Assembly (NCBI GenBank): GCA_950295325.1
Contig: OX485803.1
Coordinates: forward strand, 43,043,554 to 43,107,553
Direction of reading: 5' to 3'
From: Polytrichum commune
Lineage: Eukaryota > Streptophyta > Polytrichopsida > Polytrichales > Polytrichaceae
DNA: 64,000 nt
The notes under the pieces: generated by a model
What the model was told of the DNA's origin: nothing
Seen by the model: only the letters and a program-made list of their open reading frames with translations
The model's database searches: none
In this document: in pieces, positions 1 to 61,994 of the stretch
How the letters are laid out: every line of letters starts with the position of its first letter
Position numbering within the stretch: position 1 is the stretch's first letter
Program-made: the position numbers and the translations under genes

Positions 1-1916
1 GGGTTGTTTGGACTTGTCACAAACTCGATAAACAATTGGTCAACCTCTGCCTGAAACGTGCGGGCGTCGCCAGCCCAATATAGGAGCCGAGATTGCAGAT
101 AGTCTGCCATGACAGGATATCCCTGCAGTCCGGAGTAATTCAACATCCAAGTAAATTAGCATCACCACCTCCTCACTAAAGCAGTTTCCCGACCAACTTG
201 TCGGTTTTTTTAAAATTTTCCGTTCCAACTCCAAGATTTTGTAGAATATGAAGGCGTCGTAGGCAGCAAGTTTTTGCCATGCAATATTTTTCACAAATTT
301 GTAGGAAGTTGTAAAGAAGAGTCCAGATAATTGAGATTCGAGATTAGTCATATGCATGGAGTGGTGATATTGTAGGAAGAAGCCAGAGTGTAAACAATGT
401 CGTAACTCAAAATTTAGGATCAAATTCTATCATATGGATCAAATTCTAGAAATTCTCGGTATCTCAAAGTGCCTCATGTTGGCAAGTTAATCGTTCATGC
501 TTACGAGGAGTCTCACCTTTCTTGTGTGGTTCCACCACGTCGACCCAAGAGAGTTGCCGCGATCTACTTTTGCAATTGGGTTCTAGCGGCTTTGACATTG
601 ATATATGTTGTTTAGCAATCAAATTAAAGTGTATTCATTGTCTAATAGAATAGAATCATTGAAAACAAACAAACAAACAAAAACTGTCTCACACACACAA
701 ATTGCAAACAATACGGTCCTTGACAGTTTTGTTTTTACTCTGTGGTGTGTGTGTGTGTCTATTTGTCTATTTGTTTCCTTTTGTAGTATTGCCAGAATTT
801 TTTTTCATCGGAATGTTTACAAGCCATGATTAGGTGCCCAATTGTTCCGCATAATCCTAAGTTCAACCTATGATAAAGGAGTTTGTTGGCAATGTATGCG
901 TTTTTTGCATTCAGATCCATAGCAGTGTTCTGTGGGACTGACAATATTCCCCAGAAATATTCCCGAATATGTGAGGAATACTGCGTGGAATACTCTCAGT
1001 CCCACAGAACACTGTTATGGATCTGAATAATGTTATGTTGTCAAAAGAAAGAATAATTTGAACAAAAGGAAGAATGAAAGTGTAGACACTAATGAAGAAT
1101 TACTGACCGAGTAGTAAGGCGATTCAGCGACCACAGCGGCGGGTGTGGCGCCCGGCTCCTTGCTAGCCAAGGCGAAGAGAGCAGCTTGCAGGAGCTGCGT
1201 GCTGCCATTGCCAACCACTATCTTCTTGTCCCAAGTGATGGCATTGCCCACAAAGCCATGAATCTCCCGGATGGCATCATCCAACTCCTCGTGCACATAC
1301 CAAGGCCCAGTCAACTCCCCAAACGGCTTCTCCACGAAGTAGCTCATCAGGGAATCTGCGTGGCTAACAAAGATATGATGGTTCCTCTGTGGCTTCCAGA
1401 AGCTCTCGAACATCGTAGGGTCACCACTGCCACATTCATGAAGCAAGCACCGCACAATTCAAGAGATGATTAGTAGTCACAATACGAGTCCATGGATACC
1501 CTGGTCTACCAGACAAGATATTCCCATAATGGCAACTCTTCTTTCTAGAACTTCTTCATAGTATTCCCTGCCAATGCTTCTAACAGTTTATGATTTGTTG
1601 TTGTTTGTGAACGCTTGCAACATGCGTAGAAAGAGAACTCCAATGACACCATAAGTTTCTAAATCATAAAGGTTTTGAATTTCTTAAGTTTTTTTTGAGA
1701 ATATATATATATATTAATAAGCAACATTTCTCAAACATGGGTCACAAACATGGGTCATAAACTCTGATATTTTAGTGTGGAGAAAACATTAAGATATTTG
1801 CAAGGTCTCCAAATTAAAGAACTGCAATCATTCCAACAATCACTAGGTCAGGCGCATGGTTAATAATTTACTTACTGTTCGCAATGGAGCATGTGAGGAG
1901 TTCCGAGAGACAACAT
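1..1916 (-). CDS. TAR: TAA1/TAR-family aminotransferase-like gene, 3' part outside window
   Basis: This is a member of the plant tryptophan aminotransferase-related family, PLP enzymes that convert tryptophan to indole-3-pyruvate in auxin synthesis (family knowledge). The best-supported exon is 1108-1426 (319 bp). It has an acceptor GCAG at 1430-1427 and a donor GTCAGT after 1108, and it encodes GDPTMFESFW, the cofactor loop VGNGSTQLL and a C-terminal SPYYS. Its length and splice phases equal exon 2 of the gene at 27.5 kb. The next exon (about 125 down to 1) encodes LLYWAGDARTF and FVTSPNNP and runs off the window. Its 5' border is unclear because the reading frame shifts near 110-120. A possible first exon is 1876-1916, ATG to a GAACA/GTAAGT donor, giving HCEH before GDP; this is inferred only from phase and motif. 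Introns are 1427-1875 and about 126-1107. The catalytic-lysine exon portion lies outside the window, so activity cannot be judged. Confidence 0.75.
910..1027. mobile_element. Foldback MITE in intron of the TAR gene at 1-1916
   Basis: About 31 bp inverted arms (TTCAGATCCATAGCAGTGTT at 910 and its complement ending at 1027, one mismatch) flank a 50-60 bp core that is itself partly self-complementary. No clear target duplication is visible. It lies in the intron between exons 2 and 3. Confidence 0.7.
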
Positions 1917-3498
1917 AGTTCGAGTGATTGGTAGCCAGCCACGGCTGCGGTTGCAAGTTGCTCGCTGGGACTAATTGATTCTGAGCTCCTACACCTGTAG
2001 ATTGAAGCATTCAAATAAGATTGGGACACAATTCATTCCTCCCACTAAAATGTCCATTGACCCTAGCATATTCTTTATGGAACCATAAGTTAGAAGATAC
2101 TATATTAGAATAATTGGCCTCTGAATGTTTTCCAAATGCATAAACATGATGATTCAAGGCGGTCACGAATTGCAGAGAGACTTGAGAAAAATAAAGGACT
2201 TTATTTTTTATTTTTTTAATTTGGTTTTGTCTTCATCCCATGGGCACATTTATTTACATCAACCATGTGGTGTGACGACCGATACTAATTCCTATTCACC
2301 CACCACCAAATCCTTTTACTTGGATAATATCAGACAACACATCATTTCAAAGCCAGGCTGCACCACGCTGACTCAAAGTGGAAATCCGAAACAGGCAGAG
2401 AGACTCGAAGTACATAAAGAATAACTGGTGTCGTCTTACAGTTACTATATTTCTCACTGGCATATGCAATAAAGAGATCTGTTTTTTTTTACTATAAAAA
2501 GGACCATTTCGTAGAATCTCCTTAGCCATCTTCAATCCCCTAGCTGAACAGGTAATGTCGGCGAACTAGCAACCTGCGATCCTGTGCAACATTAACATCG
2601 TCTGTTCTCCGCTAGAGTATGGAGGAAGACATTACATTAAATACTTGAGACTCACAGCACTACGACCAGCTTCATCCATGGGAGAATCTACACAACTCTC
2701 ACACCAACACCCTCGACCCGCCACGACAATTACACGAGACTCAATCGTTTTCCGAAATGACGTACAAGCAGCAGCTCTTGAGTCTCGCTGTAGTTATTCT
2801 AGCTTAACTTTTGCACTAATTAACCGCGTTAACATGTATTCTTCCAAAGTTTGCAATCCCACAACAACAAATTCGCCGGAACACGTAGTAGCTCTGGCGA
2901 CTCACAAGACGTTCTCAAGTCCTTGCTACTTGGAGCATGCGATCATGCGGAATAAAAACGTGGCCAACAGAGAATGACTCACAGCTCGACAGTAACAACA
3001 GCATGAAAATTAGCTGGAAATTATAATACGCCCCATGAGCTATATAGCCAACTTGAAGCAGGGGTAGAATGATTCGCTGCCCGCCGACTCGCCTACCTAT
3101 CAGGCTACCACATTAACAAAATAATGTAAGAATTAACACTCACCTCCAAGTGCAATGAAAACGTAACCCCTCCCTCCTCACCTCTCACAGATACCGATCG
3201 GTCGACCGATCAGGTGCAGGCAGCATGAAGTATTGTGCAAGCTGTCGATCGATGGACGTCACAAGCTGGCCCAAAAGCAGGTGCAGCAGCACCAATACCC
3301 ACTACAAGTTAGCAGGGAAAAATTGAAGCCTGCGAATTGTTGTGGTCGGCCGATGTGGTCCAGCTGCTGAGCAAGTGAGATGTCACCGAGGAGATTGATG
3401 CCTCAAGGGTGGATCATCACAACGCAATCCAAGGCAAGGTCAGGATCCCAATCACAACACTTGCTCCCCGGCAGTGGCGCGGAGCAGAGCAGAGTAGC

Positions 3499-27506: not shown

Positions 27507-30500
27507 ATGGCAACCTTCCGTAAGCCTCAAGGTCGGCAAGCAAATGATGCCTCCATGGCTATGAATTTTCTCTACTGCGACCAGTAAGTAAATAATTATA
27601 TTTGGAGTCACATGTACCTACATTGATGCACATCTTGAATGCTGGCTGTTCTGTTGCAAAATGTTGTTGCACCCCATGTGGGCTGTTGGTCCTCAATGTG
27701 GACAAAGCTAGGTTTGTTGTTTGGAATGATTATCGTTGCAGGATGCTGATAACATTCAAAACGTATACTGGCCCAGAGATCATATGGGGCTATAGCTCAA
27801 AACCATTTCATTTTGGTATTAACTAGTGAATGTAATCCGGCCTTAACTTTTGTAGGGACGTCATTCTGAATTAGGTGATGAGTGATAGATCATAATATCC
27901 TCCTGCAGGCAATGTGGACCACAAAACCTCCTCTTTCCTATTTAATCGGTTGAGTCGAAGTTGGTCATACTTGATCAATATTGCAAGACTCAGAGGTTCT
28001 ATATGCACTTCTGATTTGGAAAGAAACGAACTTATTCAAATAATTTCTCCTCCAATTTCATTATAAGAGAGTAGTTGCAAGCTGTTTGCAATTTTCTGAG
28101 GATTAAGTGGTCCAGATGAAACGTGACCTGCCTTGCAGAGGAGGTAAGGACATTCACATGTGATTCACCTCCTGTTGGAATAGAAGTTCTTGTTCTAATT
28201 ATCAGGCAGAGAAACCTATATGCTAGGCCCATATGTCTTGCATATATTAATCAGGACCCAAGGAAGAGTTTTAATCGGATAATATTGTTATGGCTTTTCT
28301 CACCGAAGAGTATGCGAGGTTAAGTGTGGCTAAGTAGTCCACGAAGAGTCTAGAGTTTGTGTGTGCTCAGGGAGGCAAGTATTTAGTCGAAGCTAGCCCA
28401 CATAGTTTGCTTCTTCTGGTGTAACTCCCCGAGCACACATAGTTGTGAGACCATAAGTACCTGCGAGTTGCAGATTCTTCCACAAAACCGGTAGGTTCAA
28501 ATAGAATCTCTCTCTTGTGCCGTGAGCATCCCTGCAAGCGTCGAGTTGTTCAAGCCTCCTGATTTTTGTTTTCACAGAAAAAAGCTCATTTCGCCCCATG
28601 CTATGGTCGAGGTTTAGTATTCTGTTAAGGTTTGATGTCGCCATGGAGGAAGTGCAATTACTTGGTCACAGCTTGCATATTTCAGTTACACATGTTTCAA
28701 TAGCAATGTTTCACGTGCAGCTCACTGAAGGTGTTTCATCTTTTTTGTCGTTGCAGCGGCGATCCAATCATGTACGAGAGGTTCTGGCAAATCCACAAGA
28801 ACCGTTTTGTTTTCGTGAACCATCCATCTGACAGGGTGAGCTACTTGTGCAAAAGCAGCAGTTATGTGCCGGGGCTGCCGTGTTACATGAGTGGTGAGCT
28901 GGAGGGAGCCATCAGGGAGATCCATGACTGCATTGGCAATGCTGTTGTCACCAAAAAAACAATTGTGGTGGGGAATAGCAGCTCCCAGATTCTCACTGCC
29001 GCCCTCTTTGCTCTCGCCAACAGAGACGAGGGTGCGCCCTCCACTGCTGTCGTAGCAGCGGCGCCATATTGCTCTGTGAGTTGAATCTTTCATTTCACTC
29101 TACTCCCACAAACTACAATTCTGTTTCAAACTTCATGTAAATCTGAACCATTAGTTTGTCCAAGCGAGTGACTTGTGAAATCTTCTGTTGCATGTGCACA
29201 AAGTATAAAATATTCATCTCGCAAAATCTTGTTGTTTGGGTCAGCTGATGCATGATTTCCGTCTGTAAATTTATAAAAATGATAATTTGATATAGAAGTC
29301 CAGCTCGGGGTGGTTGGTCTTGCATCACAGACTAACCCTAACAGTTCAGAGCAGCATCTGCAACCACGCCGTTCCTTTGATTTGGTCATGCAATCTTCAC
29401 ATTGCAGAAGCTTCAAACTTCAGTTAAAGATTCTATCTTGGAGTAGATGTGAAATCTGTTGGAGATCTGCACAAGTGTATAATTTCTCAGAAGCTCTTGC
29501 TGCTTGGGTCAGATGATAAGTATTCAATGATCTAATTCTGTTGTCTGTGCGTAACTATGATTTATGCTAAATTTTAATTTGATGTATAACTCCAGCTCGA
29601 GGTGGTTGTTCTTGCATCTGGACAGACTTACCCCAACGTGGCAGACTCGCATCTGGCAACCTCACTCTTCCATTGGGCTGGCGATGCAAACACGTACCAA
29701 CCCAAACAAGGGGAAGCAGTGATCGAGTTTGTAACCACTCCGAACAATCCTTGCGGCTCTCTTCGCAACGAAGTGGTGGTGGGTGCAGCGGCGGGGCAGA
29801 CTCGCCGGAAATCGGTGGTGCACGACATGTCTTACTACTGGCCGAGCTTCACTCCGATCACCGAGGCTTGCAATAACGACGTCATGGTTTTCAATTTGGC
29901 CAATTGCATCGGTCATGCAGGAGTACATCTGGCGTGAGAAATTTCACTCATCGATCTTTCCTACAAATTAATATGTTGACACAATCTTCACATGCATAAG
30001 TCTAACCCATCAGGCTAAGATCTGGTGACTAATTTCTGCAAGTTAGGTGGCCATGGAGAGCAATCACTAATGAGTTTTGACTGCGTTAATGTCAACTTAT
30101 TGACATTAATAATGTCACAAATATGACATTTTCTCTCAGTGGAAGCTTAGAATGTCACAAAGTTGACAAACGAATATGAGATTAAATCCTCTGGATCCCA
30201 GTAGTGAATATAATTTTTTGTGTGTGTGCTCAAAGCTGCTAATTTTATAATTTCTGCAGCCTGTATATTAAGGCAAAGGTAATAATTAGTAGAAAGTAGT
30301 AATGGTCTGCTGTCTTCCTTTGCAGCTGGGCGATTGTAAAAAATTCTGTGGTTGCTGAAAAAATGACACAGTACATTGTCAGAAACACAGTTGGGCTTTC
30401 GCATGATACTCAAAACCGCGCAGCTGTGTTGCTCCGGGCCACCTTCAAGGGGTATGAGGATTGCGAAAAAAATCGAACGTTCTACTCTAAAGACCTCAAT

Positions 30501-31997
30501 GACTTGATTGCCAACTGCAAGTTTTTCCATTACGGAAACTCTTTGATGGAATCTCGCTGGGCGAGGGTGCGGGCCGCGCTTGCTGGGAATGCGGGTTTCA
30601 GTCTGCCACAGCCAAATCCACCTGATGGTTGCACTTTCCTTGGCACATATTTTTCAACTCATCCAGGTAAGAAATATATACTCCAATATAAAATGAAATA
30701 CAGATATATTTGACACATCTGAAACAAATATTTGATTTAAAAAATTAAATTTCCCACTGCCAGAAAAACCATGCAGTTATAATTATATTGTAGGGAGCAA
30801 GTTGAATGCCTAGGTAGCTGGAATAGAAAGTTAGCTGGATTTGTAGCACACAAGAGTCATGCGCAGTGTGTATGTTTGACAAAGTTTTTGCAAGTTTTTG
30901 ACATTTGACACGCAAAAACTTGCACAAAAATAAAATGCACGTCAATTGACACGCACGATTTAGAAGTTGACATGTAGTGTGACTTGTGAAGAAAAAAACC
31001 ACACGTTAATTGACATTTAGAAATTGAAATGACACATACCCCTAGGCATGTGACATTGAGGTGACATTTTAAAAGAAAATGTAGATGTCAATTGACATTC
31101 ATTTTGTGTTTTTGAAAACGTCACGTGACACTTTGGATTTGAAGTTGAATGTCAAATGAAATTTGTCAAACATACACACTGGTCATGCGGCTTGGTCCAT
31201 TTTATTCACATGATCTCTGCCTAGCTCCATGATTTTCAAAATATATCAAGCTTGATTTCAAGTTGTAGAGTAGGTTACATTCAATACCTCATAAGAATGC
31301 GTGAGATTTGAAATGAACTGCATGATATTACATATTACCGAGGCTCGTCTTGTGATTGCACAGATGGACTAAGCTAGATGGGTCTTAAGTGGTCTTAAAC
31401 TTTTTCCGACTTCTCCTAGGATAATATGAAATGCATGCGATAAGTACGAGATGGTTAGCAAGTCCAGCTTTACAAAGTTCCCTCACAGTTTTCGGAGCTC
31501 ACATGAATATCTTATTCATTCTGAAAGTGAAGATTCTCGTGCTCATTAATTAGAGGGTCATATAGGTCCCCCCCAATTATGTTGACTACTAAACAGACTT
31601 AGAACAGGTTATCAAATTTTGAGCACGTAGACCAATCTCTTTCAAACACACAATGCCTGCAATTTGGCAGCTGTTTTTGGAGCCACACCTAACCACATAT
31701 CATTCAAATCTAGATGTCCAATTGAATAAGATAAGTAACTGAATTAAGCACGTCTACCTTAGCTAGACACATATGTTCAATGAGGCTACTAATTGTGTGG
31801 TGACTTGTTCAGCGTTCATGTGGCTGAAGTCCGAGAAGGAGGGCTCCGATTGCCAACTCATTTTAAAGCGAAATGGCATTCTTGGCCTTGGTGGCGAAGC
31901 ATTTGGAGTATCGGCTCAATATGCACGCGTCAGTTTGGTGAATCAAGAGGCTTATGTGGATGAGCTTGTCGATCGCCTTCCATCCCTACGAGCCTAA
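27507..31997 (+). CDS. TAR: TAA1/TAR-like protein lacking the PLP lysine, five exons, 419 codons
   Basis: Exons: 27507-27583, 28757-29075, 29596-29933, 30326-30666 and 31813-31997. All borders are GT-AG and phases fit, total 1260 bp including TAA. The ATG begins MATFRKPQGR; exon 1 ends CGACCA/GTAAGT and joins to give YCDHGDPIMYERFW, the family's DHGDP signature. Recognisable landmarks: VGNSSSQIL (cofactor loop), FHWAGDA, VTTPNNPCG (residues 178-186), HDMSYYWP (208-215), HAG (239-241), AWAIVKNS, FFHYGNSLMESRW and C-terminal FGVSAQYARVSL. Length is close to TAA1 (391 aa). TAA1 has Lys in SKITGHAG; the ungapped equivalent here is Asn235 (AAT, 29902-29904), and the Arg of GSRIGW is His243. Tryptophan transamination would normally require the Lys, so this is probably a catalytically dead or altered protein. 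The clean exon structure suggests a maintained gene, though recent loss of function cannot be excluded. Confidence 0.85.
28393..28644 (-). other. Antisense open frame in intron 1 of the TAR-like gene
   Basis: An 83-codon frame starting MATSNLNRILNLDHS. It is preserved in the paralogous locus (48768 downward), where the first 16 residues are identical, followed by a frameshift. NLDH resembles the NLDHGDP start of TAA1-type proteins, but the sense gene has its own first exon. Differences between the copies in the first 15 codons are two silent changes; further on they are mostly replacements. Treated as doubtful. Confidence 0.2.
29304..29430 (+). pseudogene. Decayed tandem copy of exon 3 inside intron 2
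   Basis: Begins with the same acceptor and exon start as the real exon (CCAG/CTCGGGGTGGTTGGTCTTGC against CTCGAGGTGGTTGTTCTTGC at 29596) and stays alignable to about 29390 before breaking up. The roughly 90-120 bp on its 5' side (GCACAAAGTATA..., CTTGTTGTTTGGGTCAGCTGAT) also repeats upstream of the real exon, so the duplicated unit is about 300 bp and spans intron end plus exon start. Premature stops rule out normal use. Confidence 0.75.
30864..31181. mobile_element. hAT-like MITE in intron 4 of the TAR-like gene
   Basis: Perfect 20 bp terminal inverted repeats beginning CAGTGTGTATGTTTGAC, with a perfect 8 bp target duplication GTCATGCG at 30856-30863 and 31182-31189. The 318 bp interior is rich in TTGACATTT/AATGTCAA-type subterminal repeats. 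Absent from the paralogous intron at 50.8-51.1 kb, so it inserted after the duplication or was lost there. Confidence 0.93.
31490..31720 (-). repeat. Dispersed repeat R1 (minus) in intron 4
   Basis: Reverse-complement copy of the R1 family: CTCACATGAATATCTTATTC, AAGTGAAGATTCTCGTGCTC, GTTGACTACTAAACAGAC, CCAATCTCTTTCAAACACAC, ending in GAGCCACACCTAACCACA. Confidence 0.7.
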
Positions 31998-33619: not shown

Positions 33620-35063
33620 TAGGTTGACCTTTGAACGAGTATCTTATAGGAAACTATATGGATAGATGTGGACATGAATAGATGCCTGCCATCAAGGCCT
33701 TGGTGCAGACGAAATGGGAGTTTTGCTATATTCTGAACCAAATTGCATACAAAATTGAATTGGTTGAGTCTCATAATATCATCATGTACATATAAGGTAT
33801 GCATCTCTATTTCTTGGTTTAAATATGTTCAACCTTGCAAGATTCTATTAAACCTCAGAAGAGTTAAACCATTCAATACATTATGTTCATAGTGGACCTT
33901 GAGGATGATGTTCTGCTCGCCAGTGGAGAGGAGGAATTTTGGTGGTCCAGGGTTTGAAGTTAGATTATCTGGTTGAGCGGTTTCCTGAGCAGGCTCCTGG
34001 GAGTGGGATCGGAGAAGGCTGCTGATGGTTGCTCCTCGTTGTCTGTTGCTGGCAAGATAATAATTTTAGCTGGAAGCACGTTTTTACGGCATGTCGTGAC
34101 GAAGGGCTCGGCACAGTTCGTTCTACGGAGGGCTTGGGTGCCATTCTTGCACCTGCCGCCAGAAGTGCAGCACTCTTGAGACGGGAGGCAATTAATAGCT
34201 AGTCGAAAATGTAAATTTTACCAATGGTTTGTAGAACTTCGAACCCAGTTAATCTGCTCGAGGCTTTAGTTGCGGCATCTCCAGGAATAGTAGCAAAAAG
34301 AGTATGCAGAAATCCACATCTTAAGCGGCCACGGACAGTGCGGAAATCTGACAGAAAGGGCCATGACGCTACAAGGATCCACTACCAGCATATGAGTCGT
34401 CCGCAATCATCCTGCGTCATTAGGAGAAATATGCAAAATTATAGATTTGGCAGATTTCCTAGTGACGTAGAACAATTTTCCAGTGATGCAGGTCAATTAT
34501 CCAGGACTCCTATGCTTGTAGTGACCACACATCCCCTTTGATGTTTTGCAACGACGTGAAAGTAGCATTAATAGAGAATGTCGCTAAATAATGATATGTT
34601 TCAGTCATTTATGTGAAGTTTCATCAGATCCAAAAGCCACAATATAATATGTAATGCCGCAATCATTCTCGAAGTCACGATCACAGTATTCTCGCACCAA
34701 AACTGGATTGGGTTTTGTAAGCGTCTGACTCAGGAGGTCTGTTACAAAAAACAGGTCCAGACCACTGAAAGAAAGTGCGGGACTGAGATATAAAAGACAC
34801 AAAGTCCAATCACTGGACTTGTGACATTCCACTGAAGTGCATGGTAAGTCAAATGCAATTGCAAGTCAAGGTGTATCAAACTATGGTTATTTTCGAAACT
34901 GGAATTATGCACAAGATTTCACTACACTTTGGGTTGAAATTTTCCTGTCAGCTGTTAATGTAGACTACGCCCATTTGTACTAATTGCATCCGATTTGGCA
35001 CTAATCTGACCTTGATTCCTGTTCGTGGTGTTCTAAGATTTCAAGAACATGAACGCACAGAAA
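33620..35063. other. No recognised gene; slightly more GC-rich
   Basis: Open frames at 33973-34179 and 34224-34541 have no motif I can name. The base composition near 33.9-34.4 and 35.0-35.7 kb is less AT-rich than its surroundings, so decayed coding sequence is possible. Confidence 0.4.
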
Positions 35064-35213
35064 GATGTGCTCAAACTGCGAGGAGCTGCTGCAAACCAAG
35101 AGATTCCTGCGCGAGGTGGTTGACATTTCGGCGTGTCAGCTCAATACAATCGCCTGAACTTGATCGGCCGGCAGGCTATGACAAAGTTCTTGATTCAGAA
35201 GCTCGACGCATGA
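35064..35213 (+). pseudogene. Relic of the C-terminal exon of a TAR-family gene
   Basis: From 35124 the frame reads HFGVSAQYNRLNLIGRQ and ends ...LIQKLDA then TGA (35211-35213). This matches the last exon of the gene at 27.5 kb (FGVSAQYARVSLVNQ) in sequence, spacing and distance to the stop. Immediately upstream GGT GGT is followed by TGA (35121-35123) where the intact gene has GAA, and an earlier frame (NCEELLQTKRFLRE) fits the preceding family region only after a frameshift. No partner exons were found nearby. It differs enough from the 27.5 kb gene to come from another family member. Confidence 0.65.
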
Positions 35214-37204
35214 AATCAAGAGCTTCTGACAATTGGTTTGTCACAGCTTGGAGGCCGATCACGTTGAGACGAGCGCATCAATGAGCTAAAACGCTGAAAT
35301 GCCGAACACCCCACGAAAGAATCTCTTGAGTCCGCAGTAGCTTCTGAGCTCAATTTGAGACCTCTTTCTCTGCCGAACACCACAAAGAGCAATCAATGCC
35401 AGAAATACCAAATGCCTCCCAAACCATTGTTGCCCACTGAACGATTGTCAAGAGACACGTAATCCTCTAAACCCCTTCACACCTACAATACCCCAAATAC
35501 CAAAATACAAAAAATACACCCGATTAAGATTATTAGACATTTGTGGCTGCATCTTGTAGGTTGATGAACCCATCAAAAATTGGAAGCACGCGCACTCCTC
35601 CTCGCTATGGCCTCCAAGCTGCTCTCTGCGACCTCGTTGAAGGACACGATCGCATTCCAAACTTGGAGCTCGGCTGCTACTTGGCCGTGAAGTCAATTAC
35701 GAATGCTGAAATGAAAGACACTACACATCAGTTGTGCATCCAATATCAGCTACTAAATAAAAGAGAGCAACTTCATAATCATTCCACTCACGAAACTGGA
35801 TTTGCCATACTCGTCTTCAGAACATGGTTTGGATCAACTGCTGAAACATCTCTAAGCACAAAACATGTAGTTCAAATCCCTTTCTTTTGGTATCATACGC
35901 ATCAACTTGAAGACACTTGATTCTAAGGAATTTTATGGATTTCTTTAGAACTGCAGAAAAATCCCAAGAATGATATGTGGGTCTTCCCAGATGTTCATCC
36001 GTAGCTCTCCATCGTCGCTTGCAAGGTGAACAAAACAAGCACAATCGCTTCCGGTGGCGCAACGCACCATACTAGCAAAATCGAGAGAACGAGCATGCAA
36101 GAGCGAGTGCTAGAGTTAAAGAGAGCGAGAGAAGGCCCAAGAGAGAAAGAGAGAGAGAAGTGTGAGAGAGTCCTTCTTTGGACACCACATTTATAGGCAC
36201 CAAACCCAACTTCTAAGCAAGGACTCGTGGCCATTGCTAATCAACAATGGGGATTAGTAAGTCTTTGGGATGTCCTAAACTCGGGAAACAATTGTAAATT
36301 ATTCTCACAATTTACATGATGGGTACCTATCCATGTCTATCTTCAAGTACTATATAAAGGACAATAAGTTATCCATGAGTCTTTTTACTCTTCGGTTCAA
36401 ATAAGATATTGTAAACTCAAGATGATGTCTTCTTGGTTTTAAAGCCGTCTTGTTCTCCTCTGTACGTAGCTCCCATATGATATGCTGCAAATTTTGATTG
36501 TTTTTACTACATTCAAGTGCAACATGAAGTGTTATTCTTTGTTGTGGTTTAGAAAATTTTCAATAATATTTCATGGGATTGAAAGAGTCCAAAAACATCT
36601 TTCTATATGAGAAGTGATCACTTTTCAATTTGATGCCATGTTGAATTGTTCTCAAAACTAGAATATGTGGATTTTTTTAATACAAGTTTCCAAGTTAGGG
36701 CAAACCATCCAACTATCATGTTTTTTTTTTTTTTAAATGTTTAATGGAAAAAGAAAAAATTTCATTTTATTTGGTAGCCAACTTTTGGAATGGGGTTGAT
36801 GGACATGCTTTGAGCTCTAGCATCCTAAACATAAGTAGTCAACATTGCAAAGTTAACATGGTTTTTCTTATAATAAAACTGTTACATGTTCAAGACAAAT
36901 GTCTGAAACTTTTATTTCTATGTAAAATTATGTTTTTGAAATGAGCAAGTCCATTGAGTCAAATTTTATATGTTTTAAAAAGTTGATTCTACTAGATGAT
37001 ACATTGTAAACTTCCACTTCACTCAATTTGAGAATACTTTGATTTTCTTAATCCCAAGAATAAATAGTTCATGAACAACTAAAAATGAGAGGAATTATCC
37101 CTATTGTAGCGCACACCATTTTTTTCCCCCAAATTTAAACATTAAAATATTTGTAAAAACAAGAACGCCACATCATAACATTAAGTAACAAGTCCAGAAT
37201 GACC

Positions 37205-40574: not shown

Positions 40575-42023
40575 AGGTAGAAATACCATAACCCGTGAAG
40601 ATAAGGTGATTTGCATTGAAGATCTGGTCTGACAATCATGAGATAATTTTCCAAGATAGACGAGAAGGATTCATGAAGAATGCAAGTTGTTTCATATTTT
40701 TCTACCCTATACAAAAAAAATGCTACAATTTTTCAAAGTGGAACGTTGTTCAAACCCCTACTCATTCACTAGATTCTCCCTACACCGAACACAGTACTCC
40801 GCATTTCCATACAAAACATCGCCTCAATCAGTTACCTCATGAGTACATTAACACTTGACTCCCATTGGCTACACTAAGTGTACACGCATTGAAGTTGCTG
40901 CCTATGTTCGGGGAAAACCGACGGCTAGTTCATTATCAGCCGATGGATTTCCCCTCATGGCCGGTCCAAATTTCCAACCATCGGATGACAATCCGACTGT
41001 AATTTCAATCCTCCGGCAATTAGCCGATGGACCAGAAAATGTCCCGGAAATTTAGCCGATTCTTCTTGTGAGTTACTGGATTTTAGTCGGAAGCATCCAG
41101 AGCGCTCTTTGTCTGGGGCATTTGATGATGCACTTGAGGAAGTACCTTGAACCTTAAACTTTTTGAATTATGCAACCTTTCCATGACCAAATCCAATTGC
41201 TTCTATGAAGAATTGGGGGACCGTTGGCCTTCAAGCGGTGAAGGCATTGCTAGTTTCAATTCCTGCCAAGGATATTAACTCTTCAAATTTAAAGTTTTGA
41301 ACATGCCTTTCTTTTCACTTATTCAAGATTTTGTACTAAGAAATGATATCTAATAACTTTTCATACATTTTTAAAACAATTAGTGCCGATATGAATTCCA
41401 TTTAATCGGATATTGGCCTCGGGGGGGGTAGTCATTGGTTGGAGTAGCAATATACGTGCGAACAAATGATAGGGTATTTTAAAAACATGGGGGCTAAAAA
41501 TTATAAATGGACTTAAGAGTAATATAGGGTATCAAAAATGGCACTGGACATCTATAAAGTACTATAGGGTATGGAATAATAGGTAATTTGGAATTATAAG
41601 TTATGCAAGCCATTTTTCTATTAACCCAAAGTAGAAATTTATATAATGATAGCCTGAGCATGTGAAAAAAGGAAGAGAATTGAAAGTAATACCCCCCTAT
41701 AAAATAATGGTTGTTCGCACCTATATCCTTAACTTTTTAATGCACTGCCCCCCCCCCCCCCCCCGAGATATTGGCCAATGAAAATATGAAAATATAGGCA
41801 ATTGGCCGATTGATTTTACAAAAGACAGGCTCTTGCCGATGTAAATTGGAAAAAATCCGACCCTTCGTAGCAACTACCGGCAATTAGCTACTAAGGCTTC
41901 AAAAACTTCCCGAACTCTGGTTGCTGCTGAACCATGATCGGTTTTAGAAATGGCACTTCATCATTATGACAGCGGTCTAGTGCACAGCTAGAGGGTGGTT
42001 AACAGGTTATGGTAATTCTACCT
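40575..42023 (-). mobile_element. TA-flanked TIR element (family B) nested in MITE family A
   Basis: Ends AGGTAGAAATACCATAACC and its complement (one mismatch in 19), with TA duplicated (40573-40574, 42024-42025). Deleting the element plus one TA restores the MITE reading GGTTATCTCTCAAAC. Its flanking halves are the reverse complement of the 427 bp element at 53393-53819. It is longer because a further roughly 1.0 kb insert sits inside it. Confidence 0.88.
40902..41920. mobile_element. Third-level insertion, about 1.02 kb, hAT-like
   Basis: Absent from the homologous element at 53.4 kb. Bordered by TTGCTGC at 40895-40901 and 41921-41927 (8 bp if one mismatch is allowed). Ends share an inverted GTTCGGG motif. 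The subterminal regions are rich in GCCGAT/ATCGGC. A 17-base run of C lies at 41748-41764. No coding domain recognised. Confidence 0.75.
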
Positions 42024-47633: not shown

Positions 47634-48526
47634 CCTCAATGTCCACGAAGTAGAGGTTAGGCATGTCGTTTATAATGATTATTGTTGCAGGATGATGGAA
47701 TCCAAAGCTTATACTGGCCGAAAGATCGTATGGAATCAAAGAAAGCTTGTAGCCGTTTCCTATTTCGTTGATAATTGATAGTCTACTAAACTGCTACTCA
47801 ATAGGAAAATCAGGCATGGCATACCAGAACTGTTGAGCACATTTTATGTGCTGATTAACACCCTTTGAAGTGTTGTAGGGAAATCATCATATTCTAAATT
47901 GAAAATTTTATAGATCCTAACCTCCAGCCAATGTGGGGCACAAAACCTTCTCTTACTTCGTCTGGATTAGAAGCTGGTCATACATCAAAACTATATAGAG
48001 TCTAGAGGAATCCTCTATATGCACATAGGATTTGGAAAGGAGGGAAATTACTGAGAGGTGATTTCTCTAACTTCCAATTTGAAGATAAGATTATAGAAGT
48101 TGCACAGTCTAGCTGTACATGAAATTTTCTGAAAAGAAAACGGTGAGGTTGATACATCACTTGCCTTGCAGAGGAGGAAGGACATTCACATGTGAGTCAC
48201 CTGATCCTCTCAAATCGTGAGGACATGACATCGTCATTAGTACTGTCTGCCTCCTGACGGAATAGAAGTGCTTGTAATTATCAGGCAGAGAACCCAATGT
48301 GCAACTCCCTCATGTCTTGCAAATATTAAGGCCCCAAGGAAGAGCTTTTCTCCAATAATGTTATGGCTTTCTCCACCGAAGAGCATGCGTAGTTGAAGTG
48401 TAACTAGTCCGCGAAAAGTGTAGAGTTATTGTGTGTGCTTGGGGAGCCAAGAATGCTTAGTCGAACCAGCCCACTGCTGCATCGAGCTTCCTCTTGTAGA
48501 CCCCCAAGGACACAGAGTTAAGATTG

Positions 48527-48575
48527 CTGGCCTTCTCTGTTTGGCCGCTGCACCCACCGCCACTTCTCTGTTGGC
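48527..48575 (-). repeat. Inverted 35 bp piece of exon 3 in the pseudogene's intron 1
   Basis: The reverse strand carries a 35 bp exact match to 50180-50214 of exon 3 (begins AAGTGGCGGTGGGTGCAGCG). The equivalent position in the 27.5 kb gene lacks it. It produces the antisense frame read EVAVGAAAKQRR. Confidence 0.8.
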
Positions 48576-49419
48576 TGCCTTGAGTTGAAGAGACTTCCCA
48601 AAATCGGTCCATGCGTTCTCCACGTAGCTTCTGTCTCGTGTGCAGTGAGCATCCCTGCAAGCGTCGAGTTTGTTCAAGCCTCCTGATTTTTGTTTTCACA
48701 GAAAAAAACTCATTTTGTGCCATGCTATGGTCGAGATTTAGTATTCTGTTTAGGTTTGATGTCGCCATGGAGGGAGTGCATTTACTTGGTGACAGTTTGC
48801 ATATTTCAGTGCAGATTTATGTACAGCAATGTTTCCCGTGCAGCTTACTGAAGGTGTTTCATCTTTGTTTTGTTGCAGCGGTGATCCAATCATATGCGAG
48901 AGTTCCTGGCAAATCCACAAGAACCGTTTTGTTTTCGTGAACCATCCATCTGACAAGGTGAGCTACTTGCAAAAGCAGCAGTTATGTGCCGGGGCTACCG
49001 TGTTATATGAGTGAGGAGTCGGAGGGAGCCATCAGGGAGATCCATGATTGCATTGGCAATGCTGTTGTCAACAACAAAACAATTGTGGTGGGGAATGGCA
49101 GCTCCCAGACTCTCACTGCCGCCCTTTTTGTGCTCGCCAACAGAGACGAGGGTGCGCCATCCACTGCTGTCGTAGCAGCGGCGCCATATTGCTCTGTGAG
49201 TTGAATCTTTCATTTCACTCTCCAACAAAGTGCATTAGAGTGTTTCAAGTTTTAGGTTAAGCTAAATCTTCTGTTTGTCTGAGTGAGTCACTTGTGGAAT
49301 CTTCTGTTGCATGTGCACAAAGTACATATATTCATCTCAGAATATCTATGTTGTTTGGGTTAGCTGATCAATGACTTTCGTCTGTCCTTAATATATGCTT
49401 TGATATATAGCTCGGCCAG

Positions 49420-49570
49420 CTCGAGATGGTTGTGTGGTTTTAATAAGGATTGAAATAGTTTGTGATTGAAGTCTTGCATCACAGGCTTACCCTGTAGAGC
49501 AGAGCATCTGCAAAGCATGCTCTTCCACTGGGCTGGTGATGCAATGGTCACGCTCCAGAAGTTCGAAACT
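49420..49570 (+). pseudogene. Decayed exon 3 copy, first of two
   Basis: Starts after CCAG with CTCGAGATGGTTG, is interrupted by about 45 bp, then resumes CTTGCATCACAGGCTTACCC and CTTCCACTGGGCTGGTGATG. Confidence 0.75.
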
Positions 49571-49733
49571 CCAATTAAAGCTTATGTGATGGAGTGTTTG
49601 AATTATCTGTTCCATCTGCACGAGTATCTACATATATCTCACAATATCTTGCTGTTTAGGTGAGCTTATGATCCAGTGACTTTCTATTGATTGTGTGTAT
49701 ATATTGATATGCTAAATTGATTTATAACTCCAG

Positions 49734-49850
49734 CTCGAGGTGGCCGGTCTTGCATCACAAGCTGAGCCTAAATTGTCAGAGCATCTGCAAACCACGCTCT
49801 TTCCACTGGGCTGGTGATGCAATGGTCACGCCCCAGAAGTCTGAAAACCC
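49734..49850 (+). pseudogene. Decayed exon 3 copy, second of two
   Basis: Begins CTCCAG/CTCGAGGTGGCCGGTCTT. Reads LEVAGLASQAEPKLSEHL before a one-base shift at TTTCCACTGGG creates a stop. It keeps the AG acceptor that the full-length exon 3 at 50009 has lost. Confidence 0.78.
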
Positions 49851-51286
49851 ATTAGATTCAGCCTCCTTGTTGGAGTAATTGGGAAATCTGCTATATCTGC
49901 GCAAGTAAATATATATCTCACAAAGCTTGTTGTTCAAGTCAGCTGATGGTTCAATGATTTTTTATCGTTTATGTGCAAATGTCACATCAATTTGAAGTAT
50001 AACTCCAACTCGAGGTGGTTGTTCTTGCATTTGGACAAGCTTACCCTACCGTGGCAGAGCATTCGGCATTCTCGCTCTTCCATTGGGCTGGCGATGCAAA
50101 CAATTACCAACCCAAGGACGAGGCAGCGGTGGTTGAATTCGTGACTTCTCCGAACAATCCTTGTCACTCTCTTCGCAATAAAGTGGCGGTGGGTGCAGCG
50201 GCCAAACAGAGAAGGAAATTGATGGTGCACGACATGCCTTACCACTGGCCGAGCTTCACTGCTGTCACCGAGGCTTGCAAGCACAACCTGATGATTTTCA
50301 CCTTGGCCAATTGCACCAGCCCTGCAGGAATGCATCTGGCGTGAGTCACTCACTTGATCTATTGTGCAAGTCACATGTTACAAGTATGGTTGCTGACACA
50401 AGCTTCACATACTAACCCATCAGACTAAAAGTTGATGAATAATTCCTGCAAGTTGTAGGTGGACAGTAATGTTGTGACATGTGTATTCCTTTGCACCACA
50501 GTTGGGATTTGGCACGATACCCAAGGCCGCGCGGTTGAGCTCCTCTATGCCACCTCCAAGTGGTATGAAGATTGTGCTCAGAACTCTACTATTTACTCAA
50601 GAGACTTGAACGATTTGATTACTACCTGCATGTTTTTCCATTACGAAAATGCTTTGATGGAAGCTTGTTGGGTGAAGGTGCGAGGCGTACTTGCTACGAA
50701 TCTGGGTATTCATTGTGCCAGAGCCATGTGAACCTGATGGTTGCCTTTTCCTTTGCACTTGCTATCAACCTGTCCTGGTACATTGTATGGTTATTTAAAT
50801 TGATCGTTCAAGTCTCTAGAGTGGAAAGTTGGATTTTCAGTGCCTAGAGTTCTGAGGAGTAATGCGGCATGCTCCAATTCTTTCATACGCTCAACTCTGC
50901 TTAGCTCAATGACATTCGAAATGCAACAAGCTAAGTTGATTTCAAGTTAGGGATCATGACATATGTATCTTACAGTATCAGTGCTTGAGATATGAATAAA
51001 ATTGCATGACATACGATAGTCTTTAGGAATTATTGTTGATTGCATAGGTCGAGGCATTATGCTGTGAAGTTACTAACCCTTGCTATGCATGTGTTGTGAT
51101 GACTCAGCATTCGTGTGTTCGAAGAGGAGGACTCCGACTAATAGCTCATTCTGAAGCAGAAATGGCACCTTTGCTCTTGGTGATGCAACATTTGGAGTGT
51201 CGCCTATGTATGTGCGCATCAGTCTCGTGATGCAGGAGAATTCTGTATGTGCCCTTGTTGGACGTCTCCCATCCTTGTGCACTTGA

Positions 51287-52735
51287 ATGGGTTAACGATC
51301 TTCATCTTTTCATGCTTCATCATTCACGAGCTACATTTTCATGCTTCTTTTTTCAGGCATGCAAAGATGGAAGACGTCCGACAAGGGCATCTACAAGATT
51401 CTCTTGATTCAGTAGACTGATATGTGCAAAAATGTTATTTAGGCTCATGAACATGTGTAGGCCAGAAAAGTGGTATCAAGGAACAATTAATGGATAGACA
51501 GTCTCTCAAATTTTGTCACACTTATGCACTCTTTGATGCCTTTTTTCGAATGACATTTTGATGTAACTTGCGGCAACTACTGTATTATATTTCAATGCAT
51601 TGAAGTGAATACTAAGTCAATTGCCACTCTCAAAAAATTCGGTAATCATGGAGGCAAGAATTCTGCACATGAGTTTAAAGCTTCAGTTGAAACTCTTGTG
51701 TTGGTCCTTTTTTAGACAACACCGACTTGAAGACAAACCAGCATAATGGCAAACGTCTTAGTCTTGCGGTGCTAGATTATCATCCTCAAAAATTAGTCTA
51801 TGTTGAGATTTAGATGTGCTAAGTACTGGTGTTTTGGATACAAAGAGCTTCAATAAGCTCAAGTGAAAAGGATGGATGGTCACTAATCTCGAATTAAAAA
51901 TGAATCGCTGAATTGCACTGTCAATCAAATTCAAAGGCTCAACAAATTTGGTAAGTTGGAAGCTGAAATTAACCGCACATGATTTCATTCATGAGTCACA
52001 TTTCTCATGTTGACCCCTAGTAGACTAAACTGATTTCTTGACAAGCAATTTGGCACACGGTTCATTCATTGCGGTGCAGGCTTATAAATATCCTCAAGAA
52101 ATGAACCTAATGTTGAGCTTCAGATCTGGTGTTCTTGGGTGCAGAGGGATTTGATCTTCTCAAGACAAAAGAAACGAGTTGGATCCCTAATTTCAAACCA
52201 TGAAATCAGGGTTTTTAAGGTTTGCAAGCATAACACTACTCAGCGACATGGGCCCTAAGAATAATACAGTGGAATGTTGGGAGATCAATCCGAATTGGAG
52301 TCTCCAGGTGCAACTTTTCGAGCATCCCACTGTTATATTTCAAGGCCCCACGAAACAAGAGTTGTTTGCTAATGCTAAATACTGTTATGAGCTTCCTCAA
52401 ACTACTGAAGGAAACTTGACAAATATCGACACAACACATGGATTCTTGACCAATATGGCCTGACATCTCCCTGGACGATGGTTGAGCATCAAATTGCATC
52501 ACAAGGAAACTTTGGATCCTTGAATAAGAGCCTCTTACTGAATCTTACAGAGAACAACATCATTGTCGAAATTAAACTGACAATGTGTGCCAACAAGCCT
52601 TTACATTACATGTGCTGATGGGATGTGGCCACACCATGTCATCGGTCAGCTTAAATTATTCCAGTTTGTCAGTTGAACAAACTGAAGCCCCTGATAAGAA
52701 GATGTGCCTGAATCGAACATAGCAATACTCTGGAC
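51287..52735. other. No gene recognised; a diverged tandem repeat
   Basis: 51.3-51.7 kb matches the 3' flank of the 27.5 kb gene. About 51778-52000 and 52088-52290 appear to be tandem copies of one roughly 300 bp unit (CTGGTGTTTTGGATACAAAG against CTGGTGTTCTTGGGTGCAGA). The 87-codon frame at 52200-52463 has no recognised domain. Confidence 0.5.
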
Positions 52736-52739
52736 ACCT

Positions 52740-52990
52740 ATATTTGAGTGGTATGTGGGTAGGTGTGGATCGAAGAATGGAAGCTAAAAAGATATGTGTT
52801 TAAAAGAGATTGGATTACGTGCTCAATTATGTTATTAACCATTCTAGGTTCAATAGTCTACATGAATGGAGGATGTATGTGATCACTTAATGAGCAAAAA
52901 TAATCTTCTTTTTTTTTGATAAATAAGATGTTCATGTGAGCTCTAAATATTATGAGGCAAAATTTTCAGATTTGCTAAGCATCTCGCACG
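52740..52990 (+). repeat. Dispersed repeat R1
   Basis: GGGTAGGTGTGGATCGAAGA, ATATGTGTTTAAAAGAGATT, TTCATGTGAGCTC, ATTATGAGGC; same order as the other copies. Confidence 0.7.
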
Positions 52991-53023
52991 AATTGCGTGT
53001 TTCGTAACCTACGAGAAGAGGGT

Positions 53024-53821: not shown

Positions 53822-54661
53822 TGGCAGACTGCCATGATGTAAAAATCATCCTACCGAAGTCGCACTCCATCTAAACAAATCAGTCATATGCCTACACTTG
53901 GGAGTCATACTTTCTTAGAACTTGACAACTAAAGTAGACGTGCCTTGAATGGAAAGTTTTTTCTGCGCATGCAGGACATGAAACACACAATTATCATGAG
54001 ATCCTTAGCAAACTGAGATCATGCATGTAGCCATTTGTCTCATGATTATTAGAGTTCATATGATGAATATATTGCTCATTACAAAAAGTGAAGATTTTCG
54101 TGCTCATCGAGTGGTCATATATATAGGTCTCCACAATCATGTTGACTAGTGAGCCCAGAATGGTTAGCATATGTTGAGCACGTACTCCAATCTCTTTTAA
54201 ACATGTGCTTTTTTGGTGCCAATTTTTAGATCTACAAATGTAGGTCTAATAATATGCGTTAATTTTCTCTTTCAATTATCAACAAGATCGAGGTAAAATA
54301 TTAAGGTTCATAAATGATAGAAAATATTCTCAAATGATTAAGAGGACAACATCTGATAAGGTGTAGGTACTGTAGTGCATCTTTCCAATGTTATCAATTT
54401 CAAGGTTCTTGTTTTCAAAGTTAAGTTTGTGATCATAGAAGGACCCCCAAAAATTGAAAAATTAATTAGCCGTTCAAGTATCTCTAGTTGGGAGATTTTC
54501 AAATTTATGTGATGAGGTGTGACAAAAGATTTTTTTCACTTTGATTTCTTATCAAGAATCGTACTTGTTTGGGGTGTAGTTTTAAGATCAGTGAAACAAC
54601 ATTAGAAAGCTTGTAGTAAATATACCATCAACATGCAACTTACAGTTGTACTTGGACTCCT

Positions 54662-61320: not shown

Positions 61321-61419
61321 CCTACTAAGGTAGAAGAGAGACATTAGATTCATCCAACATAAATGCACTAAAATAGAAAATAATCAATGGAAAATGGTAA
61401 ATATTTCACAATAGATAAT

Positions 61420-61930
61420 GGACAATAAATAGTAAATATTAAATAGACAGTAAATAGTAAATAGTAGACAATTATATAAATAGTAATTAAACAATAAAAA
61501 ATAAATGGTAAACATAAGTAGTAAAGAGTAATAATAGACTGTAAAGAGTAAATAAAAATAAAAAAAGTAGGTAAAAAGTAGTATATAAAAGTAGTATATA
61601 AAAGTAGTAAGTAAAAACAGTAAATAAAAATAGTAAGTAAACACAGTAAATAAAAATAGTAAATAAGAACATTAAGTAAACACAGTAAATAAAAATAGTA
61701 AATAAAAACAGTAAATAAAAACAGTAAATAAAAACAGTAAGTAAAAACAGTAAGTAAAAACAGTAAATAAAAATAGTGAATAAAAATAGTAAGTAAAAAC
61801 AGTAAGTAAAAACAGTAAGTAAAAACAGTAAGTAAAAACAGTAAATAGTATGTCGTAGATAGAAGACAATAAACGGTACATAGTAAATATTATACCATAT
61901 ATAGTAGATATTATATTTTATATAGTAAAT
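61420..61930. repeat. AT-rich minisatellite, 13 bp unit
   Basis: Variants of CAGTAAGTAAAAA, most regular at about 61735-61845, grading into AGTAAATA-type repeats on both sides. The apparent long minus-strand frames here (YFYLLF repeats) are artefacts of the repeat. Confidence 0.88.
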
Positions 61931-61994
61931 AGAAATGAAGAGTAACTTGCGGCCTCTCTATACAAATCTTTTAAGTACTCATCATGCAACATGT

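Follow-up and report, generated by a model that had tools for sequence, protein, structure and literature searches.

Enzymes of the TAA1/TAR type catalyse the conversion of tryptophan to indole-3-pyruvate, a step toward auxin. The family has been split into TAA and alliinase clades according to an EMBO J review (PMC10015382), and TAR activity in moss is reported to be the major rate-limiting step (PMC7821132). For Arabidopsis TAA1, loss of activity is reported for the K217A mutant and for the phospho-mimic T101D, which also acts as a dominant-negative, and co-immunoprecipitation shows heterodimers of TAA1 with TAR1 (PMC6997161). Non-catalytic homologs of other pyridoxal phosphate (PLP) enzymes are also on record. 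Serine palmitoyltransferase contains in LCB1 a homologous subunit without the PLP lysine, and hLCB1 is a working partner of hLCB2a (PMC3794620). TSB-like of core eudicots is a dead PLP-enzyme paralog in tryptophan/indole metabolism, recruited in plant indole synthesis as an activator of the alpha subunit of tryptophan synthase (PMC12727527). Pseudoenzymes are already known as a kind, and the gene described here would add a new variant. No paper naming a TAR pseudoenzyme was found in the open-licence literature that we searched, and the word lysine is absent from the accessible part of the EMBO J review (PMC10015382).

The gene in question, called W here, lies at 27507-31997 on the forward strand of a 64,000-nucleotide stretch of the Polytrichum commune genome (the window; C1:43043554-43107553 of a 408 Mb assembly), and is a five-exon gene of the TAA1/TAR type (Table 1). 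Its exons join into 409 codons and a stop, with all four introns GT-AG and with no stop or frameshift inside the frame. An initial annotation had recognised the five exons and the open frame but made it 419 codons long. It had begun exon 3 at 29596, right after an AG further upstream; the acceptor lies at 29626 (TCTGGACAG/ACTTACCCC), which by alignment is the exon 3 start of four lysine-bearing paralogs in the same genome, and the residue numbers first given are consequently 10 too high. The boundaries and phases of W exons 2-5 are identical to those of the same four paralogs, and the intron positions of TAA1/TAR genes are reported as conserved between Arabidopsis and P. patens (PMC7821132). 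Among described proteins, Arabidopsis TAA1, TAR1 and TAR2 are matched over the full length: residues 4-407 of 409 align to TAA1 (PDB 3bwn) with an E value of 1.1e-68 and 35% identity, the RKP segment of exon 1 was aligned by phmmer to the TAA1 N-terminus from residue 7, and no EGF domain was found. The alliinase or TAR3-TAR4 type with an EGF domain (PDB 1lk9, 2hor) has the Alliinase_C domain in common with W (PF04864, E 5e-95, profile positions 4-361 of 363), but identity is 30% and no EGF_alliinase match lies near W.

Table 1. Coordinates of W, its sister copy P and their paralogs, in window positions except where another location is given
Feature	Position	Strand	Details
W exon 1	27507..27583	+	ATG 27507; MATFRKPQ...FLYCDH; GT donor at 27584
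W exon 2	28757..29075	+	GDPIMYERFW...APYCS; TAA1 Gly99>Ser, Thr101>Ser, Tyr129>Cys
W exon 3	29626..29933	+	PLP-lysine site; acceptor matches four Lys-bearing paralogs
W codon AAT	29902..29904	+	Asn225, at TAA1 Lys217 position
W exon 4	30326..30666	+	WAIVKNSVV...STHP
W exon 5	31813..31997	+	TAA at 31995-31997; retains Arg = TAA1 Arg363
Degenerate partial copy of intron 2 end and 5' exon 3	29277..29393	+	in W intron 2; 75% to 29569-29689
P, decayed sister copy of W	47658..51594	+	shares Asn; broken
Low W-P divergence tract	28541..29250 vs about 48662-49367	+	intron parts K2P 0.13, 0.24
L004, 5' part	1..1876	-	window left edge; Lys-bearing; open exons 2-5; exon 1 inferred to end 1876, exon 2 1426-1108, exon 3 from about 122
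L001	C3		Lys-bearing; open exons 2-5
L002	C1, 5.29 Mb		Lys-bearing; open exons 2-5
L003	C2, 63.4 Mb		Lys-bearing; open exons 2-5
L005	C2, 62.99 Mb; 2369-3118 of locus		exon 2 region fragment, 95-99% identical to P

The PLP site sets W apart from both described types. The block from YYWP to HAG aligns to TAA1 without gaps, just as first described, and within it Asn225 stands at Lys217 of TAA1 and Lys251 of alliinase. The initial annotation had the asparagine and its codon right but numbered the residue 235; the histidine two residues past HAG, in the place of TAA1 Arg225, was likewise read correctly but is His233 rather than His243, while HDxxYYWP does keep its Asp and Tyr. Further replacements in W are TAA1 Tyr129 to Cys131, Ser216 to Ala224 and Gly99 to Ser100. 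Against six lysine-bearing references (TAA1, alliinase and the four own paralogs L001-L004), the changes Lys217>Asn, Tyr129>Cys, Ser216>Ala and Arg225>His distinguish W from six of six. W retains 52 of the 64 columns that are invariant across these references, the 12 changes being, in TAA1 numbering, V84I, G99S, L103I, Y129C, S165T, D207N, S216A, K217N, T219I, R225H, G227A and D233N. The losses gather around the lysine: in TAA1 205-229, 6 of 11 columns have changed, compared with 6 of 53 in the rest of the alignment (Fisher p = 0.0035). The same clustering is seen when invariance is required just of the four paralogs (7 of 14 versus 15 of 89, p = 0.010).

Ser216, Arg225 and Tyr129 of TAA1 are PLP-pocket residues, with phosphate and stacking roles going by alliinase structures; Asn168, Asp191, Tyr194 and Arg363, which W retains, have roles in binding the ring and the carboxylate. 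Asparagine cannot form a Schiff base, and a known working lysine-less PLP enzyme uses histidine instead. As an enzyme homolog without an essential catalytic residue, W is, judged from its sequence, a predicted pseudoenzyme. Its ancestry places it in the Alliinase_C/TAA group, but we do not file it as a tryptophan aminotransferase because it lacks the PLP lysine that defines one. We infer that the protein would fold like TAA1, hold no PLP covalently as an internal aldimine, and not transaminate tryptophan.

The remaining half of the pocket could in principle still bind a small molecule, so that W would be a binder or sensor of PLP, tryptophan or indole-3-pyruvate, or would have a different chemistry. 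The four unchanged residues are what speaks for this; however, the broken sister copy P has the same four, so their retention may be inertia. The loss of Ser216, Arg225 and Tyr129 also counts against it, as does an asparagine that forms no Schiff base, and the nearest lysine in W, Lys240, corresponds to TAA1 Lys232, a separate conserved residue. We consider such binding distinctly unlikely.

It is scarcely credible that a gene-model or assembly error conceals a lysine-bearing exon 3 and that W is an ordinary active TAR. Intron 2 does contain a second, degenerate partial exon 3, and the acceptor first proposed was 30 bases off, but the partial copy (29277-29393) stops short of the lysine site, and the pocket Arg, Ser and Tyr are gone too, not the lysine alone. 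The initial annotation had raised the prospect of an alternative exon restoring the lysine. No such exon emerged when the L004 and L001 proteins were searched by tblastn over the window, where the lysine site was covered at W and P only, bar a chance-level match (E 7.1, 41531-41587), or from the genome-wide family search. Assembly error at the asparagine codon itself is unlikely, since the two separate loci W and P both carry it.

In P the asparagine codon is AAT at 50309-50311, which bears out the initial annotation's view that the lysine was lost before W and P split. P is otherwise broken: exon 2 has lost 2 bases, exon 4 lacks its start, and exon 5 has frameshifting gaps along with a pair of adjacent stops. 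Divergence between the copies is uneven: outside the low-divergence tract K2P is 0.36, 0.41 and 0.37 in introns and 0.34 in the 3' flank, well above the values for the intron parts within it (Table 1). Exon 2 is 93% identical (296/317) and intron 1 is 88% identical over the flanking 216 bases. As the identity extends into intron 1, that of exon 2 is better put down to gene conversion than to selection, and 28541-29250 is probably a gene conversion tract between W and P. Exon 2 was accordingly dropped as evidence of constraint, and the tract was excluded from the tests on exons 3-5.

For those exons P was used as an internal control in relative-rate tests, with changes polarised by an outgroup. 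With L004 as the outgroup W shows 7 amino-acid changes versus 32 in P (p = 7e-5), third positions being similar at 24 versus 19; when codons within five of a P lesion are omitted, the counts become 6 versus 29. A consensus outgroup (at least three of four) gives 4 versus 18 (p = 0.004), or 4 versus 16 away from lesions (p = 0.012). Taken singly, L001, L002 and L003 give 7 versus 23, 6 versus 25 and 7 versus 23, with third positions of 19 versus 17, 10 versus 24 and 18 versus 17; part of the difference could therefore be one of rate, since third positions are uneven with L002, though even with L004, L001 and L003. By exon the counts are 5 versus 12 in exon 3 (p = 0.14), 1 versus 13 in exon 4 (p = 0.002) and 1 versus 7 in exon 5 (p = 0.07), while exon 2, at 3 versus 4, is uninformative and lies inside the tract. 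The counts hint that constraint is most evident towards the C-terminus and least so in exon 3, which carries the dead lysine site. Of the columns invariant in the four paralogs, 91 can be compared; W retains 71 of them and P 62, with 13 retained in W alone and 4 in P alone. Far fewer amino-acid changes than in P at similar third positions argue for purifying selection on W after the lysine was lost, an argument that assumes P to have evolved at least as freely as W, as its lesions support.

Codon models give a mixed picture of the dN/dS ratio, which the initial annotation had proposed to estimate along this branch. Pairwise omega between W and P is 0.55 over 352 codons and rejects 1 (2dlnL 11.1), and for exons 3-5 it is 0.56 (2dlnL 8.6). 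The tree-based, branch-specific model, applied to the W branch alone, does not reject omega = 1, giving 0.29 for exons 2-5 (2dlnL 0.6) and 0.79 for exons 3-5 (2dlnL 0.0). With P set to neutral, a setting that is not rejected (lnL differences 0.2 and 0.8), omega for W is about 0.20. With the omegas of W, P and the stem all free, this model is not identifiable with such distant outgroups, its likelihood being nearly flat and its stems 6-16 neutral substitutions per codon. We therefore rely on the pairwise and relative-rate tests, and the stem and background omegas of the branch model were not used.

The intact frame can be set against neutral expectation. In simulations of exons 3-5 at 0.2 neutral substitutions per site the mean was 4.2 stops and about 1% of 4,000 runs stayed stop-free, while at 0.05 per site 28% did. 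Aligned W-P intron and flank sequence contains 25 indels in 1,052 bases, 13 of them not multiples of three; at this rate the W side would be expected to have gained 5.2 frameshifts, with a probability of none of about 0.006. These figures for the survival of a neutral frame make W look somewhat better than it should, as W was chosen for being intact. The broken frame, broken splice sites and lack of constraint by which pseudogenes are recognised are not seen in W, and it is most likely a pseudoenzyme and not a young pseudogene. The initial annotation's suggestion of a retained, lysine-less TAR that could be a pseudoenzyme thus gains support from the 7 versus 32 changes and from a W-P omega that rejects 1.

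A dying gene might nevertheless look similar, if W had been constrained long after the loss of the lysine and silenced so recently that the frame is intact by recency only; a gene that had just stopped being expressed would have this sequence too. Several observations lean this way. At the positions of TAA1 Gly99, Ser165, His208 and Thr219, all residues conserved among the paralogs, W alone has changed while P keeps the ancestral residue. Both related copies, the sister P and the scattered fragment L005, are broken, and the tree model does not bound omega on the W branch below 1. Yet the small number of amino-acid changes relative to P at comparable third positions, the 409 codons without stop, frameshift or non-GT-AG intron, and a W branch in the protein tree just 1.4-fold longer than that of L004 (0.65 versus 0.47) all weigh against it, and we judge a dying gene unlikely.

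With moderate confidence, then, we propose from sequence comparison that W is a retained pseudoenzyme of the TAA1/TAR group, one that would most likely pair with the L004 enzyme and so lower or adjust indole-3-pyruvate. W would enter a dimeric enzyme as the inactive subunit beside the lysine-bearing, predicted active L004 protein, and the pairing would lower or adjust production of this auxin precursor. The proposal of a built-in inactive subunit draws on the inactive, dominant-negative form of TAA1 and on the reported TAA1-TAR1 heterodimers (PMC6997161). The likeness to T101D extends to a proposed inactive subunit, but in T101D an active enzyme is in a regulated or engineered state, whereas W would be a gene of its own with inactivity built in. 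LCB1 is part of a different enzyme, and its partnership with LCB2 is established while that of W is proposed; TSB-like belongs to another enzyme family and another plant group. A more specific version, possible rather than probable and argued by analogy, is that auxin synthesis would have a natural brake encoded by a gene: W, an old lysine-less TAR, would be selected for forming dead heterodimers with L004 and thus be a genetic counterpart of TAA1 T101 phosphorylation in Arabidopsis. If true, control of the step from tryptophan to indole-3-pyruvate would gain a new layer in a catalytically dead TAR kept by selection, and W would make it testable whether TAR heterodimers regulate plant auxin.

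L004 is the closest paralog of W (50.7% identity, support 100), and the two stand head to head about 26 kb apart, the rest of L004, including its lysine codon, lying to the left of the window. An unrooted tree of eight sequences (seven plant proteins) joins W and L004 (100) to L002 (81), and groups alliinase with L003 (87) and TAA1 with those two (65). The genome-wide family search returned 23 Alliinase_C exon matches at seven loci; exon 3 is present at six, with lysine in L001, L002, L003 and L004 and asparagine in W and P. EGF_alliinase exceeds the cut-off at L003 and L001 and is weak at L002 (E 2.4, below the cut-off), with no match listed at L004 or W. The L005 fragment, which sits on a different contig of chromosome size, is a recent copy, given its identity to P.

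Several smaller features of the region may be recorded here. Degenerate partial copies of 5' exon 3 occur in intron 2 of both genes, a single copy in W and two or more in P (49472-49544 and about 49735-49860), and represent repeated internal exon duplication. A dispersed repeat is common to W intron 4 (31410-31720) and the region past P (52731-53018 and 54063-54203), at 68-74% identity. At 35055-35373 lies an imperfect inverted repeat (72%); within it, tblastn of L004 picks up a piece resembling exon 5 (35103-35204, E 6e-5). A search for PsaD found one locus, L007 (747-1788; C4, 24.69 Mb), with two matches split by an intron. Among the 60 of 77 PDB hits listed for its protein, the top single-domain chains are 8htu, 7ksq and 6l35, which are photosystem I structures from moss (Physcomitrium). 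Long, low-complexity open frames rich in YLLF/FTYCFYLL repeats lie on the reverse strand at 61368-61957.
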